53,539 nt of DNA from Acidimicrobiaceae bacterium (lineage in GTDB: Bacteria; Actinomycetota; Acidimicrobiia; Acidimicrobiales; RAAP-2): the NCBI GenBank assembly GCA_003167415.1, contig PMTF01000008.1, positions 62,812 to 116,350 on the forward strand, given 5' to 3'. The translations under genes were made by a program, and so were the position numbers. Under the pieces are notes generated by a model. That model was not told the origin of the DNA, ran no database searches, and saw only the letters and a program-made list of their open reading frames with translations. Of this stretch, positions 47,794 through 53,539 are shown piece by piece (the stretch's first letter is position 1; each line of letters opens with the position of its first letter).

Positions 47794-48390
47794 ATGTCCA
47801 CGTCCGCCCCCTATCCCTTGCAGCTCGAGCTCCACGCCGACCGTAACATCACCCAATGGCGGCCGCTGGTGCAGTGGCTGCTCGCCATTCCACACCTGCT
47901 CATCGCCTGGGCGCTGCGCACCTTGCGCCAGGTCCTGACTCTGATCAGCTTTTTCGCGGTGCTGTTCACTACGCAGATCCCGCGCCCACTTTTCGATGCC
48001 ATCGTTATGACCTATCGCTATGAGTGGCGGGCCATGAGCTACGCCTTCTTCATGCACGAGGACTACCCTCCGTTCGACTTCGACCTCTCCTGTGACGACG
48101 ACGGGGTGGAGCCCCACACGTCACTGTGTCTGACCTATCCTGAGTACCTCGAGCGGTGGAAGCCGCTATACAAGTGGTTCCTCGCCATTCCTCAATACGT
48201 CGTTCTGGCGGCACTGTGTATCGCCGCCTGCGTGGGTATCGTCATCGGCTTCCTCGCCGTCCTTGTCACCGGGGAGTACCCGGAAGGGATCCGCGCCTTC
48301 CTCGTCAGCGTCTATCGCTATGCCCTGCGGGTCGAGGCCTACGTCGGCTTCCTCACGGATGGCTACCCGCCCTTTAGCCTCGACGCTTGA
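47794..48390 (+). CDS. DUF4389 family membrane protein with two repeated units
   Basis: 198 residues. Two similar halves: YPLQLELHADRN...WRPLVQWLLAIPHLLIAW and, 110 residues later, WKPLYKWFLAIPQYVVLAAL, each ending in a segment like PRPLFDAIVMTYRYEWRAMSYAFFMHEDYPPF or RAFLVSVYRYALRVEAYVGF. These are the DUF4389 signatures. An internal duplication is evident. Located 104 bp after the DUF4386 gene and probably in its operon. Confidence 0.85.
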   Translation: MSTSAPYPLQLELHADRNITQWRPLVQWLLAIPHLLIAWALRTLRQVLTLISFFAVLFTTQIPRPLFDAIVMTYRYEWRAMSYAFFMHEDYPPFDFDLSCDDDGVEPHTSLCLTYPEYLERWKPLYKWFLAIPQYVVLAALCIAACVGIVIGFLAVLVTGEYPEGIRAFLVSVYRYALRVEAYVGFLTDGYPPFSLDA

Positions 48391-48432
48391 GGCAGGACCC
48401 GACATCAGCTTTTTTGAACGAAAGGACAGTTC

Positions 48433-49080
48433 ATGCCCACCGTGACTGATTTCTGGACCGACGTGCACCAGGAACGCCAAGCCCTATTGAAGTACCTCGA
48501 GACACTCACACCCGAGCAGTGGGATATCCCTTCGCTCTGCGATGAATGGCGAGTCCGGGACGTCGTCGGACACATGGTGAGCGAGACCCAAATGACTGTT
48601 GCTCAGGCTGCCTGGGGGTCCATTACATCGGGTTTCCGAATCAACCGGTATATCGCGAAGGATGCCCGACAGCGAGGCGCGGCCCCCGTCACGAAGCTTC
48701 TCGCGGACTTCCGAGGCGTGGTCCTCGCTCGCACCCATCTGCCCGGCCTGTCGTCGTTGTCCATGCTCGAGGACATAGTCATCCACCAAATGGATATTCG
48801 CCAACCGCTCAAGCAACACCGCGACATTCCCAATGGGCGAATGATCCCCGTCGCCGGGGACCTCTGGACCAACCGCTTCTTTCCTGGCCCGAAACTGTTT
48901 CAGGGCATTCGCGCCATTGCGACTGACGCGGATTGGTCGGCCGGCGACGGTCTGGATGTCACCGGGCCTATTGAGGCGCTGGTCCTCACCTTGGCCGGCC
49001 GCTTTGCCGCGGTTGACCAGCTGCAAGGTGATGGAATGGCGACCCTGCGTATGCGGGCAGATGCTCTCAGTGGGCAGTGA
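48433..49080 (+). CDS. MDMPI/DinB-type maleylpyruvate isomerase family protein
   Basis: 215 residues of the mycothiol-dependent maleylpyruvate isomerase N-terminal fold (DinB-like helical bundle): FWTDVHQERQALLKYLETLTPEQWDIPSLCDEWRVRDVVGHMVSE near the N-terminus, with the conserved His (VGHMV) and a second in EDIVIHQMDIRQPL as likely metal ligands. AAAGGACAG precedes the ATG. In actinobacteria this family uses mycothiol or acts in detoxification. The last gene of the TetR-controlled operon; its C-terminus lies 16 bp before a dispersed repeat. Confidence 0.85.
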   Translation: MPTVTDFWTDVHQERQALLKYLETLTPEQWDIPSLCDEWRVRDVVGHMVSETQMTVAQAAWGSITSGFRINRYIAKDARQRGAAPVTKLLADFRGVVLARTHLPGLSSLSMLEDIVIHQMDIRQPLKQHRDIPNGRMIPVAGDLWTNRFFPGPKLFQGIRAIATDADWSAGDGLDVTGPIEALVLTLAGRFAAVDQLQGDGMATLRMRADALSGQ

Positions 49081-49095
49081 CGAAGCGCAGTCCTT

Positions 49096-49147
49096 GTCGA
49101 CCTGGTCGCGTGGTGTTGCGGAAATATGAGGCCTAAAAAGAGGCCCG
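49096..49147. repeat. 54-bp dispersed repeat, copy B (diverged)
   Basis: Related to 38312-38365 and 49391-49444, with about seven differences over 52 bp by hand alignment. Retains CGTGGTGTTGC, GAAATATGAGGCCTAAAA and the GGCCT / AGGCC hairpin. It directly follows the MDMPI gene. Confidence 0.7.
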
Positions 49148-49273
49148 CGACATATCATTGGCGCGGATTACGTCAATCGATGACGCGAATTTCGAATTTC
49201 TTCACATTCCTTCTGGGGAAACGCGACCGTCGTGATCTGCGAACACGGAACGAACATTTAAGAATTCAGAATG

Positions 49274-49309
49274 GTGGGCCACCCGGGTCTCGATCCCGGC
49301 ACCTTGGGA
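49274..49309. repeat. 36-bp direct repeat, right copy (possible attachment-like site)
   Basis: Partner of 43275-43310 (one difference). Read on the minus strand, the copy extends as CTTTTAATCC before the repeat, like an anticodon loop (TTT) and stem, and ends in GTGGCCCACCA. It therefore looks like the 3' half of a tRNA-Lys, but the T-loop is not canonical and there is no 5' half, so I do not call a tRNA. Confidence 0.7.
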
Positions 49310-49390
49310 TTAAAAGGAACCTTCCATCGGTTGTTCTGTGTCGGTTTCGTTGCGCATGTCTATTCTTTTCAAGAAAACGTGTTGTTTTGA

Positions 49391-49444
49391 GTCGGTCTCG
49401 TCTCGTGGTGTTGCAGAAATATGAGGCCTAAAATGAGGCCTGTT
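49391..49444. repeat. 54-bp dispersed repeat, copy C
   Basis: Nearly identical to copy A at 38312 (53 of 54) although 11 kb away, and about 300 bp after copy B. Hairpin GGCCT / AGGCC included. The near-identity over that distance implies recent duplication, gene conversion or strong constraint. Confidence 0.8.
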
Positions 49445-49784
49445 GGAATCTACGGGTTGCCGCATTAGACAGACTCGATGTGAGATTCAATCGTGACGCG
49501 TGGCCAATTCATTTCGCTGTAATCGCAACTACAAGTTTGAGCGCTCGATGAACCTTGGATTCCATGGTCACATCAATTGCCAGGGTGATGTACTGGTGCG
49601 GTCGTCGATGAAGGAGTTGAAGCAGTCGGCTGCGGACCCCAGGCGACGACGCCACCAGCAAAAAGAGCCGACACTATCAATGCAAGAAGCCCTCGAGTAA
49701 GCCATGCGCGAGCCTGCATTAAGTCCGTGTGCTTATTTTGGCTCGACCAGCGACGAAAAGAGAATTTGAATTAAAGTTGCCATC
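49445..49784. other. AT-richer intergenic stretch, no gene recognised
   Basis: Short frames exist (for example from 49500) but show no family or ribosome-binding site. Base composition falls visibly here and stays lower through bioB. Confidence 0.4.
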
Positions 49785-49805
49785 TTTGGTGATACGTTCA
49801 CCAAA
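49785..49805. promoter_or_regulatory. 21-bp palindrome overlapping the CADD-like gene start
   Basis: Perfect arms TTTGGTGA and TCACCAAA with the spacer TACGT. The right arm ends on the A of the ATG at 49805. No ribosome-binding site is seen, so the transcript may be leaderless or nearly so, with a repressor bound over the start. A candidate NrtR-like or other operator. Confidence 0.55.
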
Positions 49806-50440
49806 TGACAAATCACCTTGCAAACTCACTTGAATTGGCAATTACTGATCGAAAATTATTGAGCCATCCGTTTTATCAGCGATGGGAAGCAGGTGAACTA
49901 TCGTTTGATGAGTTGCGTCACTATGCCGAACAATATCGGTACTTCGAGGAGATGCTCCCTCGGTTCCTTGGACATCTGGCCGAAGAATTGCCCGAGGGCG
50001 CTGTTCGTGATTCCGTGCTTATGAATTTGAAAGACGAAGTAGCGGTGCCTAGTCACCTTGAACTCTTCGAACAATTTGCGACTTTTTATGACGCATTGGA
50101 GGCGCCTATATCGCTTGCCATGCAGCGTCTGGTCAACGCCTATTTTGAAGTCCTCATTGAAAGTCCTGCGGCCGCGCTCGCTGGTCTTTGGGCTTACGAG
50201 AGCCAAGGTACCGGAATTGCGGATTCAAAGGCCGAAGGACTCGAACGGTACTACGGCGCAAACAGCGATGCGCTTGCATTCTGGTTAGCGCACGGATCAA
50301 TTGAAGGGGATCATGCAAAGTGGACACTTGAAGCGCTCGAACTGCTTAAGCCGGATGAAAACGTCGTTCACCACTCGGTACGAATCATTGCTGACGCGTG
50401 GTGGGAGTTCTTGGACGAGCGTGAATTGGTGCCGAAGTAA
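49805..50440 (+). CDS. CADD-family haem-oxygenase-like di-metal oxidase, putative p-aminobenzoate synthase
   Basis: 211 residues; TenA/PqqC-like all-helical fold. The closest family I recognise is CADD (Chlamydia protein associating with death domains). Recognised metal ligands are Glu78, His84, Glu132, His163, Glu167 (Asp in Chlamydia) and His170. Tyr24 in SHPFYQRW, Tyr40 in RHYAEQY and Lys142 in ADSKAEGL match the Chlamydia tyrosines and lysine; there Tyr27 and Lys152 are consumed as source of the ring and amino group of p-aminobenzoate. Thus a self-sacrificing pABA synthase is plausible but not proved; other members of this fold do different oxidations. Gene composition is AT-richer than the rest, which suggests transfer. 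Confidence 0.75.
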   Translation: MTNHLANSLELAITDRKLLSHPFYQRWEAGELSFDELRHYAEQYRYFEEMLPRFLGHLAEELPEGAVRDSVLMNLKDEVAVPSHLELFEQFATFYDALEAPISLAMQRLVNAYFEVLIESPAAALAGLWAYESQGTGIADSKAEGLERYYGANSDALAFWLAHGSIEGDHAKWTLEALELLKPDENVVHHSVRIIADAWWEFLDERELVPK

Positions 50441-50505
50441 GTTTTTTTTTCAAGCGCCTTGGTCATGAACCAACGATGTAGGTGACACTAGCCACACAAT
50501 TTTAA

Positions 50506-50802
50506 CTGAGAGGCCCAGGAGTTCGACAGCATACGTCGATCATTCACTCCGGACGCGACCGCCTTCGCGCAAAGCTCACCTACACCAACATCGCCTTTGC
50601 GTTCGTGCCGGCAACGTTCACGATAGCGGAACTGCGTTCAGTTTACGAAGCGTGCCTCGGTCACGCTGTGTCGTCAACAAACCTGCAGCGCGGTTTACTG
50701 CGGCGAGCAGTCATTGAGTCCACGACGTCAGCGGCACTATCGTCTTCGTCCGGTGGCCGCCCCGCGACAGTGTACCGATTTCGCAATCGAACTCTTAGGT
50801 GA
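50506..50802 (+). pseudogene. remnant of an NrtR-like Nudix regulator (C-terminal winged helix only)
   Basis: A frame of 98 codons from just after a stop at 50503. The sequence LRAKLTYTNIAFAFVPATFT, then IAELRSVYEACLGHAV, then NLQRGLLRRAVIE and GGRPATVYRFR, is the linker and winged-helix domain of Nudix-related regulators. There, IxELxxVYEAxLGxxxxxxNFxRxLL is typical. The preceding Nudix domain is absent, with only 65 bp to the CADD-like stop. Either a truncated gene or a stand-alone winged helix from an internal GTG at 50605. It precedes bioB by 120 bp. Confidence 0.6.
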
Positions 50803-50882
50803 CGGATCCGTTTGCCGCGTTTCGCCCGCCGCTATTCGATTCAGAGTTCTGAGGTCATTGGTTGGTTCGCCGTCGGACATGT

Positions 50883-50911
50883 TTGACATATTGAGATTTC
50901 ATTTAATGTCA
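50883..50911 (+). promoter_or_regulatory. promoter-like sequence and 6-bp dyad upstream of bioB
   Basis: TTGACA (50883-50888) and TAATGT (50904-50909) with a 15-bp spacer form a possible promoter. TGACAT and ATGTCA, 16 bp apart, make an inverted repeat over it. Wide-spaced dyads are typical for biotin-repressor (BirA) operators, but the arms here do not match the known consensus TTGTAAACC. Confidence 0.35.
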
Positions 50912-50921
50912 TGATTGGTGG

Positions 50922-51998
50922 ATGAAAACTGAATTGAGTGCACTGCTTGATGACTTGATGGTCAAAGCATTGGATCGGCGACCGCCAACAAAGACACAAG
51001 CGTTGGAGTTGCTATTGACGAGCGACGACGATCTCCTCGATGTTGTAGCGGCAAGCGGCCGCGTGCGACGGCACTTTTTTGGAAATAGAGTCAAATTGAA
51101 CCTCATTATCAATATGAAGAGTGGTCTGTGTCCAGAAGACTGTTCCTACTGTTCGCAGCGCAGCGGTTCAAAGGCAGACGTACTCAAATATAATTGGATT
51201 GATCCTCTCGTAGCGGCCGAGACGGCAGATCGAGCGGTGGCCAGTGGGGCGAAGCGGGTCTGCCTCGTGGCGAGTGGTCGCGGTCCAACTGATCGAGACA
51301 TCGGACGCATCGCGGAGACCGTGTTGGCAATCAAAGAACGCCAACCCCATGTAGAGGTTTGCACGAGTCTCGGCCTCTTGACTAAGGAGCGAGCCCAACG
51401 TTTGTTGGAAATTGGCGTGTTCGCGTACAACCACAATTTGAACACGAGCGAGGCGAATTATGGCGAGATCTGCTCGACTCACACCTTCGCAGATCGCCTC
51501 GACACCGTAAACATTGCTCGCGATGTGGGCCTCTCGCCGTGCTCGGGAGCGATATTCGGAATGGATGAGAGCGATGAGGATATCGTCGACTTAGCCGTCG
51601 ACCTTCGTGCTCTTGATCCGGACTCGGTTCCCGTAAACTTTCTCATCCCTTTCGATGGCACGCCCATGGGTGGCAAATGGCAGCTCACTCCCCAGCGATG
51701 TCTTCGCATCTTGGCCCTCTATCGATTCTTCTTTCCGGACGTTGAAATTCGGATTGCCGGTGGGCGTGAGATTCACTTGCGAAGTCTGCAAACTCTCGGA
51801 CTTCACTTGGCCAATTCGATTTTTGTCGGTGACTACTTGACGAGCGAGGGCCAGGCCCGGAAGCTTGATTTCGCCTTGATTGCTGATGCGGGATTTGTGG
51901 TTGAGGGCCTAGAGGAAGTTACTTTGCCATCCGCCCGTCACGACTTGGTGACTCTGCGACGCAGAGGACCGGGGACCGAGATGCCGGCCAATGTCTAA
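50922..51998 (+). CDS. bioB: biotin synthase
   Basis: A 358-residue radical SAM enzyme inserting sulfur into dethiobiotin. The cluster motif is CPEDCSYC (residues about 70-77) in [19 protein letters not shown]. Also visible are [52 protein letters not shown] and the conserved Arg in [12 protein letters not shown], the ligand region of the second iron-sulfur cluster. Length is usual. ATG with GGTGG just before. The rest of the biotin pathway is absent from the window. Confidence 0.95.
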
Positions 51999-52197
51999 TT
52001 CATTTTAGTCAAGAGACTTCGCTCTGCACCGATGAGTGAATTGACCTCGTACTCGAATTGGGACAGGAGGCGGTACGTTCGAAAGCGCGAGCGGTTGTGC
52101 AATCTTGGCAGTCGCGTGGACGCGACTTGCTGTACGTCCGGATTCAAATGCGAATATAGATTGCGGGAGTTTAACAAGGCCGGTACCATATGGGGCC

Positions 52198-53094
52198 ATG
52201 GCAACGACTGATTCCACTGCGGAAGGTCATGCTCTAAAGTTCGACGACTGGTCAAAGGGACTCATCCTCACCGTGCGATCCCCAGACCGCGTCGGGATCG
52301 TCGCCGGTTTGGCCGCCAGCATTCAGTCCGCAGGTGGCAATATCGTCGAGCTGGACCAGCACACGGACGTCGTTGAAGGTGACTTCGGTTGCCGCATCGA
52401 GGTCGCTGGGTCCGTGGACGCTTTGGAACTCGATCGGCGTCTCAAAGATATTCAATCATCACTCTCGACGATCTACACCCTGACCCCGGTGGCTCGGCGA
52501 CGTTCGCGAGTGGTGGTGCTGTGTTCCTCGACCCTTCACTGCCCGAGCGATCTCATTGCGCGAAGCGCCATTGGACAGTTGGACTGTGACGTCGTCGCGC
52601 TCGTGAGTGATCAGACGACGGCGCGTGAACTGGCCGAGCGCTACGGTGTGCCGTTCACACACCTCCCAATAAGGGAGGACCGCGCCGAACAGGAGCGCCA
52701 ACTCGGCGAAGTGCTCGAAAGTCTCGAGCCCGACTTGATCGTGCTAGCCCGTTACATGCGAGTTCTTCCCGCCTGGCTTGTGAGCCACTATGAGCAGCGC
52801 ATCATCAACATTCACCACTCATTCTTACCGGCATTCATCGGGTCCAATCCTTACGCTCGAGCTCACGAACGCGGGGTGAAGATCATCGGGGCGACGGCGC
52901 ACTACGTCACTTCTGAATTAGACGGTGGGCCAATCATTGCTCAAGACGTCGTCCATCTCTCGCACCGCGACGACGTCGCCGACATGACGCGCCGCGGCGC
53001 AGACATTGAGCGTTCAGTGCTCGCTTCGGCGATCCGGCTGCACCTGGAACAGCGCGTCATCGTGTTCGGATCGCGCACGTGCGTCTTCGATTGA
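52198..53094 (+). CDS. purU: formyltetrahydrofolate deformylase
   Basis: Hydrolyses 10-formyl-THF to formate and THF, balancing one-carbon pools and feeding purine synthesis. 298 residues: an N-terminal ACT domain (LILTVRSPDRVGIVAGLAASIQSAGGNI at about 22-49) and the formyltransferase fold, with LIVLARYMRVLPAWLV, the catalytic NIHHSFLPAF (Asn, His), and ELDGGPIIAQD (Asp). ATG at 52198 (GCC ATG G context) is preferred to the longer frame from 52105. Starts about 200 bp after bioB; folate use ties in with the putative pABA synthase upstream. Confidence 0.93.
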   Translation: MATTDSTAEGHALKFDDWSKGLILTVRSPDRVGIVAGLAASIQSAGGNIVELDQHTDVVEGDFGCRIEVAGSVDALELDRRLKDIQSSLSTIYTLTPVARRRSRVVVLCSSTLHCPSDLIARSAIGQLDCDVVALVSDQTTARELAERYGVPFTHLPIREDRAEQERQLGEVLESLEPDLIVLARYMRVLPAWLVSHYEQRIINIHHSFLPAFIGSNPYARAHERGVKIIGATAHYVTSELDGGPIIAQDVVHLSHRDDVADMTRRGADIERSVLASAIRLHLEQRVIVFGSRTCVFD

Positions 53095-53302
53095 CTTGAC
53101 TCTGGATTCTAATTATGAGACGACGAAGCTTGCGGAGTCAGCCAGGTGCCATGCGAACAACGTCAAGGTCTTCTCGGGCTTGCAGACCATGTTTCGACTT
53201 ACGTACCGAGCGTGTTCCCGTCTCTCCGGGAGCTGCCGCTTAACCTTTTTCCGAGAAAGTAACCGGCATTCTTGGAGATCCAATCAAGACTTTGGTAAGC
53301 AC

Positions 53303-53360
53303 TTGACAACATGTCGTTCGACCGATAGTCTGACTTAGTGGTCTGGAATCGATTCCAGAC
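53303..53360 (+). promoter_or_regulatory. promoter with a perfect 20-bp palindrome at the transcription start
   Basis: -35 TTGACA (53303-53308), 17-bp spacer, -10 TAGTCT (53326-53331). The perfect palindrome GTCTGGAATCGATTCCAGAC occupies 53341-53360, i.e. at or just after the expected start site. An ideal repressor site for the secreted protein gene downstream. Confidence 0.7.
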
Positions 53361-53390
53361 ATTCGGTCTTTAATGCGGGGGGTTTTTGTG

Positions 53391-53539
53391 ATGTCGTGGC
53401 GTTCGGGAAGTTCGTTCCTCGGCAAGCGTGTAGGCCAATCTCGCGGCGCTCGCGTGGCGGTGACGGCGGCGCTCGTGGCGGCGCTGCTGACGGTGGCGAC
53501 TGGGGTGGTCAGCGCGTCCGCGCAGCCAGGGGAGTTGAC
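53391..53539 (+). CDS. secreted protein, N-terminal part only
   Basis: The frame is open to the right edge. ATG at 53391 has GGGGGG about nine bases upstream (an in-frame ATG at 53373 is an alternative). MSWRSGSSFLGKRVGQSRGA is a basic n-region, followed by the hydrophobic VAVTAALVAALLTVATGVV and a likely signal peptidase site at SASAQ. The mature protein is beyond the window, so family and function are unknown. Its high GC contrasts with the stretch before it. Regulated by the palindrome promoter just upstream. Confidence 0.7.
   Translation, partial: MSWRSGSSFLGKRVGQSRGARVAVTAALVAALLTVATGVVSASAQPGEL

Follow-up and report, generated by a model that had tools for sequence, protein, structure and literature searches.

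The window analyzed here is a stretch of 53,539 nucleotides that forms part of a 116-kb contig in a 2.66-Mb draft genome (G000; 29 contigs, 96.6% complete, 3.2% contamination). On its plus strand, at positions 49805 to 50440, lies an open reading frame for a 211-amino-acid protein that sequence, profile, and model matches point to as a CADD-like haem-oxygenase-like dimetal oxidase (HDO) and predicted self-sacrificing p-aminobenzoate (pABA) synthase. The ATG is at 49805; the initial annotation placed the start at 49785, which lies 20 bases ahead of this ATG in a different frame. Between this gene and bioB, a frame at 50509 to 50799 (+) matches the winged helix of NrtR (PF21906, 45.6 bits, approximately positions 50593 to 50781), has no Nudix part, and is probably what truncation has left of a Nudix-type regulator (NrtR). 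On the other side, between the gene at 48433 to 49080 and the CADD-like gene, a 50-nt direct repeat (49096 to 49145 and 49391 to 49440; 88% identity, spacing of 295) sits within a 2-kb AT-rich stretch. A tRNA or structured RNA serving as an upstream integration site was considered and rejected: ARAGORN found none in the window and Rfam none at 48000 to 53539. A permissive Rfam search of 49000 to 49810 also gave none, and a guessed tRNA-like pattern returned nothing.

Pfam assigns Haem_oxygenas_2 and TENA_THI-4 to the 211-aa protein. The best curated model is TIGR04305 (fol_rel_CADD, NCBIfam) at 120.5 bits (E = 7e-35), which does not reach its cut-off of 200 bits; nor does the BesC model NF042919 (22.8 bits against a curated 500). 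Single-sequence matches among PDB entries were CT610 (E = 4e-20), the "4-aminobenzoate synthase" 9pj4 (E = 1e-19), and BesC (E = 1e-7), and a profile built from 36 homologues ranked 9pj4 first (E = 1.6e-38), followed by CADD (E = 4e-34) and BesC (E = 9e-15). Residues of 9pj4 match the NePabS numbering at an offset of 21. Judged from sequence, the similarity to CADD is beyond chance. The AlphaFold model (mean pLDDT 96.5) has the all-helical haem-oxygenase-like fold, and Foldseek ranked CADD first, with a TM score of 0.92. Reexamination of the Foldseek matches with VIA-align gave a Z score of 30.6 for CADD (rmsd of 1.2 Å over 205 residues), the next being HrmI at 25.2.

All the residues expected of a self-sacrificing pABA synthase were found, with one exception in the putative radical path. 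The 36 homologues used here are the window protein and relatives from the same taxonomic family; a first sample of 120 genomes had 45 with a match, and 36 of these supplied the set. Alignment with CADD confirmed the counterparts of CADD Tyr27, Tyr43, and Lys152 that the initial annotation had pointed out. These are Tyr24 (49874 to 49876), equivalent to the sacrificial tyrosine (NePabS Tyr25); Tyr40 (49922 to 49924), equivalent to the second, essential tyrosine (NePabS Tyr41; excerpts of PMC11965152); and Lys142 (50228 to 50230), equivalent to the amine donor (NePabS Lys159). All three are present in 36 of 36 homologues, and the Tyr/Tyr/Lys set is retained down to 40% identity. The six metal-ligand positions of pABA synthases, three histidines and three carboxylates, are likewise occupied, as had been claimed, by Glu78 (50036 to 50038), His84 (50054 to 50056; 6 residues from Glu78 compared to 7 in CADD), Glu132, His163 (50291 to 50293), Glu167 (50303 to 50305), and His170 (50312 to 50314), the last three within 50291 to 50314. 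The Glu-to-Lys spacing of ten also holds, from Glu132 to Lys142. Tyr131, the counterpart of CADD Tyr141 and NePabS Phe148, directly precedes Glu132 (codons at 50195 to 50200). Among the 36 homologues, Tyr24, Tyr40, Tyr44, Glu78, His84, Tyr131, Glu132, Lys142, Phe159, His163, and His170 are invariant; the ligand at position 167 is Glu or Asp, and the other five ligands are identical. The exception is position 88 (50066 to 50068), where CADD and NePabS (Trp99) have the radical-path tryptophan and the family has Phe in 35 of 36 and Leu in one.

How these positions behave in an enzyme is described in excerpts of PMC11965152. In NePabS, Tyr25, Tyr41, and Lys159 are essential, Tyr25 being converted to glycine and Lys159 to aminoadipate, and replacement of Tyr45 by Phe or of Trp99 by Phe (W99F) reduces activity. 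Trp99 is helpful in NePabS and is not known to be a defining residue of pABA synthases. Tyr44 (49934 to 49936) is the counterpart of NePabS Tyr45 (PMC11965152, in part) and may belong to the radical path. The excerpts also report that an F148Y variant of NePabS accepts Fe/Fe or Mn/Fe and that F177Y shifts the enzyme to Mn/Fe. Since the window protein has Tyr131 at the NePabS 148 site and Phe159 (50279 to 50281; CADD Tyr170, NePabS Phe177) at the 177 site, both in 36 of 36 homologues, mixed use of Fe/Fe and Mn/Fe is predicted.

The gene is under purifying selection. Compared with its closest relative, L109 (72% identity), pN is 0.165 and pS is 0.739 (saturated), which means that selection acts on the CADD-like protein. 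To place the protein, 117 CADD-related rows were assembled from the window, 10 other rows, and 106 of 110 further loci (L221, L222, L225, and L226 had no hit and were omitted), some genomes being represented twice. Of the 117, 105 have the Tyr/Tyr/Lys set; ten rows are other HDOs that do not have it, and two are fragments. When 60 of the rows were placed in a tree, set-bearing proteins separated at 97/96 from the eight other HDOs included, and the 40 members of the window's group formed a single clade at 99/96. A 43-row tree that includes 9pj4 gave the same picture, with the split from other HDOs at 98/90 and the window's clade at 100/98. Therefore, the window protein falls among CADD-type proteins, away from HDOs devoid of the Tyr/Lys set, and its group is a subclade beside the TIGR04305-type proteins. 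It is not filed under TIGR04305 because the 200-bit cut-off is not reached, yet it resembles the tested pABA synthases and is predicted to function as they do. None of 120 family genomes exceeds the cut-off, and the subclade is mostly below it. At the base of the clade are L182, L186, and L187, two of which were measured against TIGR04305 and scored 202.0 and 195.8 bits. L199 to L204, whose phylum is that of a record titled Chloroflexi, are above the cut-off and bear the same Tyr/Tyr/Lys set.

Record titles, which may be wrong, give some idea of distribution among the best 80 of 150 relatives. The closest among named records carry Acidimicrobiaceae MAG titles and isolate names such as palsa, bog, and fen, and by title the window's group also occurs in Dormibacterota, Chloroflexi, and single MAGs of other phyla. 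Some unusual members were seen. A side group consisting of L011 to L013 (which belong to another family of the class), L207, L211, and L224 has the Tyr/Tyr/Lys set and odd ligand positions, with other residues at 78 and 170 in L011 to L013, L211, and L224 and at 78 only in L207; the metal site may be rearranged there, or the alignment may have slipped. In each of the genomes G368, G308, and G333 (phylum of G285), 4 to 11 CADD-related HDOs were matched, none reaching the TIGR04305 cut-off, which makes for a large pool of unassigned HDOs. G586 has three CADD-like matches, of which two score just 130 to 135 bits. A scan of viral contigs confirmed no relative of the CADD-like protein, and the plasmid relative seen was a single Burkholderia glumae plasmid protein with 25% identity.

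The initial annotation had suggested a genome-wide search for pabA, pabB, and pabC, and this search recognized no pabB or pabC in G000. PF00425 matched two proteins, an isochorismate synthase (MenF) that exceeds its cut-off and a TrpE-like protein whose best models are TrpE (521 bits for a cut-off of 693 and 496 for one of 518), compared to 286.5 of 328.4 bits for pabB; because the TrpE-like protein is below the TrpE cut-offs too, its assignment rests on the best score. PF01063 matched one protein, IlvE, above cut-off, and the PabBC fusion of G238 found no match in G000 at 1e-50. A shared TrpG/PabA-type amidotransferase is present and adjoins trpE. Clustered elsewhere in the genome are folE, folP, folB, and folK, each above its cut-off, so that dihydropteroate can be made, yet G000 has no recognized PabB or PabC. 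G000 also has two DHPS homologues (L229 on contig C23 and L230 on contig C5), both above the TIGR01496 cut-off; the second lies away from the folE-folP-folB-folK cluster, and two matches are usual in the 120 sampled family genomes. The proposal of a CADD-like putative pABA synthase in an actinobacterium is thus supported by the absence of a recognized PabB or PabC, by the four folate genes, and by the tree. Two outcomes had been named that would speak against it, a complete PabABC route and placement in another haem-oxygenase-like clade, and neither came about, since no pabB or pabC was recognized and the protein groups with the CADD type.

Across the family, the distribution of the two pABA routes is less simple. 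In the first sample of 120 genomes, 45 have the CADD-like protein, and in 7 a single open frame contains PF00425 next to PF01063. Two of these fusions (G161 and G238) were scanned, and aminodeoxychorismate synthase was the best model for both, with TIGR00553 at 326.1 and 320.2 of 328.4 bits; PabBC is therefore named here by best models and domain order, scores being just below cut-offs. A full census of 172 genomes (PabBC match at 1e-50, CADD-like profile at 1e-10) found the CADD-like protein in 63 (matches in G184 and G588 are weak, and those in G588 and G559 partial) and PabBC in 12. The two never occurred in the same genome, compared to 4.4 expected (hypergeometric P = 0.0033; P = 0.0042 without G184 and G588), in a test that ignores relatedness. 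With the 101 best genomes (≥90% complete), exclusion is weak (overlap of 0, 2.4 expected; P = 0.045, again ignoring relatedness). Genera g1, g93, and g87 contain both genes in different genomes, and 30 genomes of the window's genus, its own included, match the CADD-like protein.

The swap of CADD for PabBC across the family is not strict, however. Forty carriers were reached through named loci, 14 of them census genomes and 26 outside the census, the latter screened by PF01063. At least 2 of the 26 have either PabBC (G282, with aminodeoxychorismate synthase models best and TIGR00553 at 327.7 of 328.4 bits, just under cut-off) or a PabC-like protein (G292, 234.6 of 273). PF01063 matched in 34 of the 40 carriers, with two or more matches in 13, and four low-scoring matches were classed. 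The classed matches in G272 and G287 turned out to be class-II branched-chain aminotransferases, as did the second match in the family genome G130. Extra PF00425 matches were present in three sampled carriers, G163, G185, and G196. The largest class in the census has neither PabBC nor the CADD-like protein (97 of 172 genomes, and 59 of the 101 best; unfused divergent PabB was covered in the first 120), and folP is nevertheless present in 120 of 120 sampled genomes, in 119 above cut-off. This means that a missing PabBC alone does not make CADD the source. The reading we offer for these 97 genomes is pABA salvage or an unrecognized route.

The surroundings of the gene add little to its function. 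PurU and bioB nearby had been taken as a folate/vitamin context, and this could not be upheld. Forty neighborhoods of 4.8 to 19 kb were clustered by protein similarity: a bioB relative occurs in only 1 of 40 (the window's), PurU in 2 of 40 (the window's and that of L072, 42% identity), and a direct check found folE, folP, folB, folK, and trpE in none of the 40. A vitamin gene context was therefore rejected, the bioB neighbor not being conserved. No recurring neighbor family beyond generic ones was found when 55 same-strand neighbors of at least 150 aa were scanned with Pfam, the most frequent being NAD_binding_8 (4 of 55). Gene order changes between groups and is mostly stable only within groups of close relatives. 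The gene of L109 adjoins genes read by eye as lon and TIGR03083-like.

The gene had also been thought to be acquired together with an AT-rich segment. The AT richness is real: the gene has a G+C content of 0.50 (GC3 of 0.50) compared to 0.59 for the window, the two 1-kb blocks of 49001 to 51000 are the lowest in the window (0.505 and 0.521; other blocks are at 0.528 to 0.536), and the window copy is at 0.50 compared to 0.54 to 0.66 in 21 measured relatives. Arrival from afar does not follow, as the gene nests among same-genus genes and 63 of 172 family genomes carry it. With the window copy more AT rich than the 21 measured relatives, the data are compatible with transfer over a short range and equally with local drift.

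Taken together, the window protein is very probably a functional pABA synthase of the self-sacrificing kind, belonging to a CADD subclade of its own. It would be the sole recognized source of pABA in its host, replacing PabB and PabC, and would presumably be needed in vivo. Of the initial annotation, the observation and the pABA synthase reading stand; the vitamin context and the origin from afar do not. From the residues and the fold, we infer how the reaction would run, by which radical path and with which metals. The carboxylate/histidine dimetal site (Fe/Fe or Mn/Fe) would react with O2, and the oxidizing equivalent would reach Tyr24 through aromatic residues, perhaps Tyr131, Tyr40, and Tyr44. 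The C-alpha/C-beta bond of Tyr24 would then be cleaved, leaving glycine; the freed ring would be oxidized by O2 to the carboxylate, and Lys142 would donate the amine. The yield would be at most one pABA per protein, which FolP would couple to the pterin. In the tested enzymes, O2 activation, long-range tyrosine oxidation, C-alpha/C-beta scission, an O2-derived carboxylate, and a lysine-derived amine are described in excerpts of PMC11965152 and PMC13108848.

Other explanations were weighed against this one. The protein could be a different HDO acting on a small-molecule substrate, as BesC, UndA, and PqqC do, with Tyr24, Tyr40, and Lys142 in another role. Its TIGR04305 score is below cut-off, Phe88 replaces the conserved Trp, and it has a weak similarity to BesC (E values of 1e-7 and, by profile, 9e-15). 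We nevertheless consider this improbable: all ten rows outside the CADD side are without the Tyr/Tyr/Lys set, the set is kept to 40% identity in the window's relatives, and the nearest fold is that of CADD and the nearest solved sequences are CADD and 9pj4. A contig foreign to this genome, that is, a binning artifact, is hardly credible. A draft of 29 contigs with 3.2% contamination and AT-rich local DNA would allow it, but the contig is 116 kb long, 30 same-genus genomes and 63 of 172 family genomes match, and the nearest relative among the best 80 of 150 is titled as an Acidimicrobiaceae MAG.

A more serious question is whether a protein able to make pABA is also the main source of it. The host could instead depend on salvage, or on a TrpE-like protein and an amidotransferase serving both pathways together with an unrecognized lyase. 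The 97 of 172 relatives with neither route, all sampled genomes having folP, fit such a situation, as do the shared TrpG/PabA type of the amidotransferase beside trpE and the failure of the TrpE-like protein to reach curated TrpE cut-offs. However, that protein scores best against TrpE (521 bits) and falls short for pabB, a second class-IV aminotransferase was not found in G000, and salvage alone would presumably not select for retention of the gene. This alternative is therefore judged unlikely, and the window protein as a working pABA synthase remains the preferred reading. For the family as a whole, we tentatively suggest, as a possibility short of an even chance, that the pABA branch is in flux in these Acidimicrobiia. 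A subclade enzyme whose radical path has changed (no Trp, Tyr131/Phe159, Fe/Fe or Mn/Fe) may replace PabBC in about one-third of the genomes, and more than half, having neither, may live on their neighbors' pABA or use another route.

If the window protein and its subclade work as proposed, they would explain pABA supply in uncultured Acidimicrobiia that have folP and no recognized PabB or PabC. More than half of the 172 family genomes match neither pABA route, a gap in the known supply, and the TIGR04305 cut-off overlooks this family's copies (0 of 120 genomes over it). A deep subclade of environmental origin in which the sacrificial residues are invariant, the radical path differs, and the F148Y change occurs naturally also offers an independent test of which residues are needed and of metal choice. 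The tested self-sacrificing pABA synthases described in excerpts of PMC11965152 and PMC13108848 are CADD and NePabS, and, to the extent that the literature was searched, nothing specific to this route in Acidimicrobiia or actinobacteria was found.

Comparison with known systems shows where the window protein stands. BesC, PqqC, TenA, UndA, and HrmI have the overall fold in common with it (Z of 18.8 to 25.2 among 50 rows) but only 9 to 22% identity, and absence of the Tyr/Lys set was seen in ten other HDO rows. TIGR04305 members above the cut-off (L199 to L204) have the same Tyr/Tyr/Lys set, whereas the window's group is a clade of its own, the window protein scoring 120.5 of 200 bits. CADD (CT610 of Chlamydia trachomatis, Mn/Fe) is 27 to 30% identical and has in common the fold, the counterparts of Tyr27, Tyr43, Lys152, and Tyr141, and five of six identical ligands; the window protein differs in having Glu167 for Asp178, Phe88 for Trp, and Phe159 for Tyr170. 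Homologues of CT610 show linkage to folate genes (excerpts of PMC1971073), whereas the window's group has no folate genes nearby (0 of 40 neighborhoods). NePabS (NE1434 of Nitrosomonas europaea, Fe/Fe; PMC11965152, in part) has Tyr25, Tyr41, Tyr45, Lys159, and Phe177, all with counterparts in the window protein, which in turn has Tyr131 for Phe148, Phe88 for Trp99, and shorter loops.
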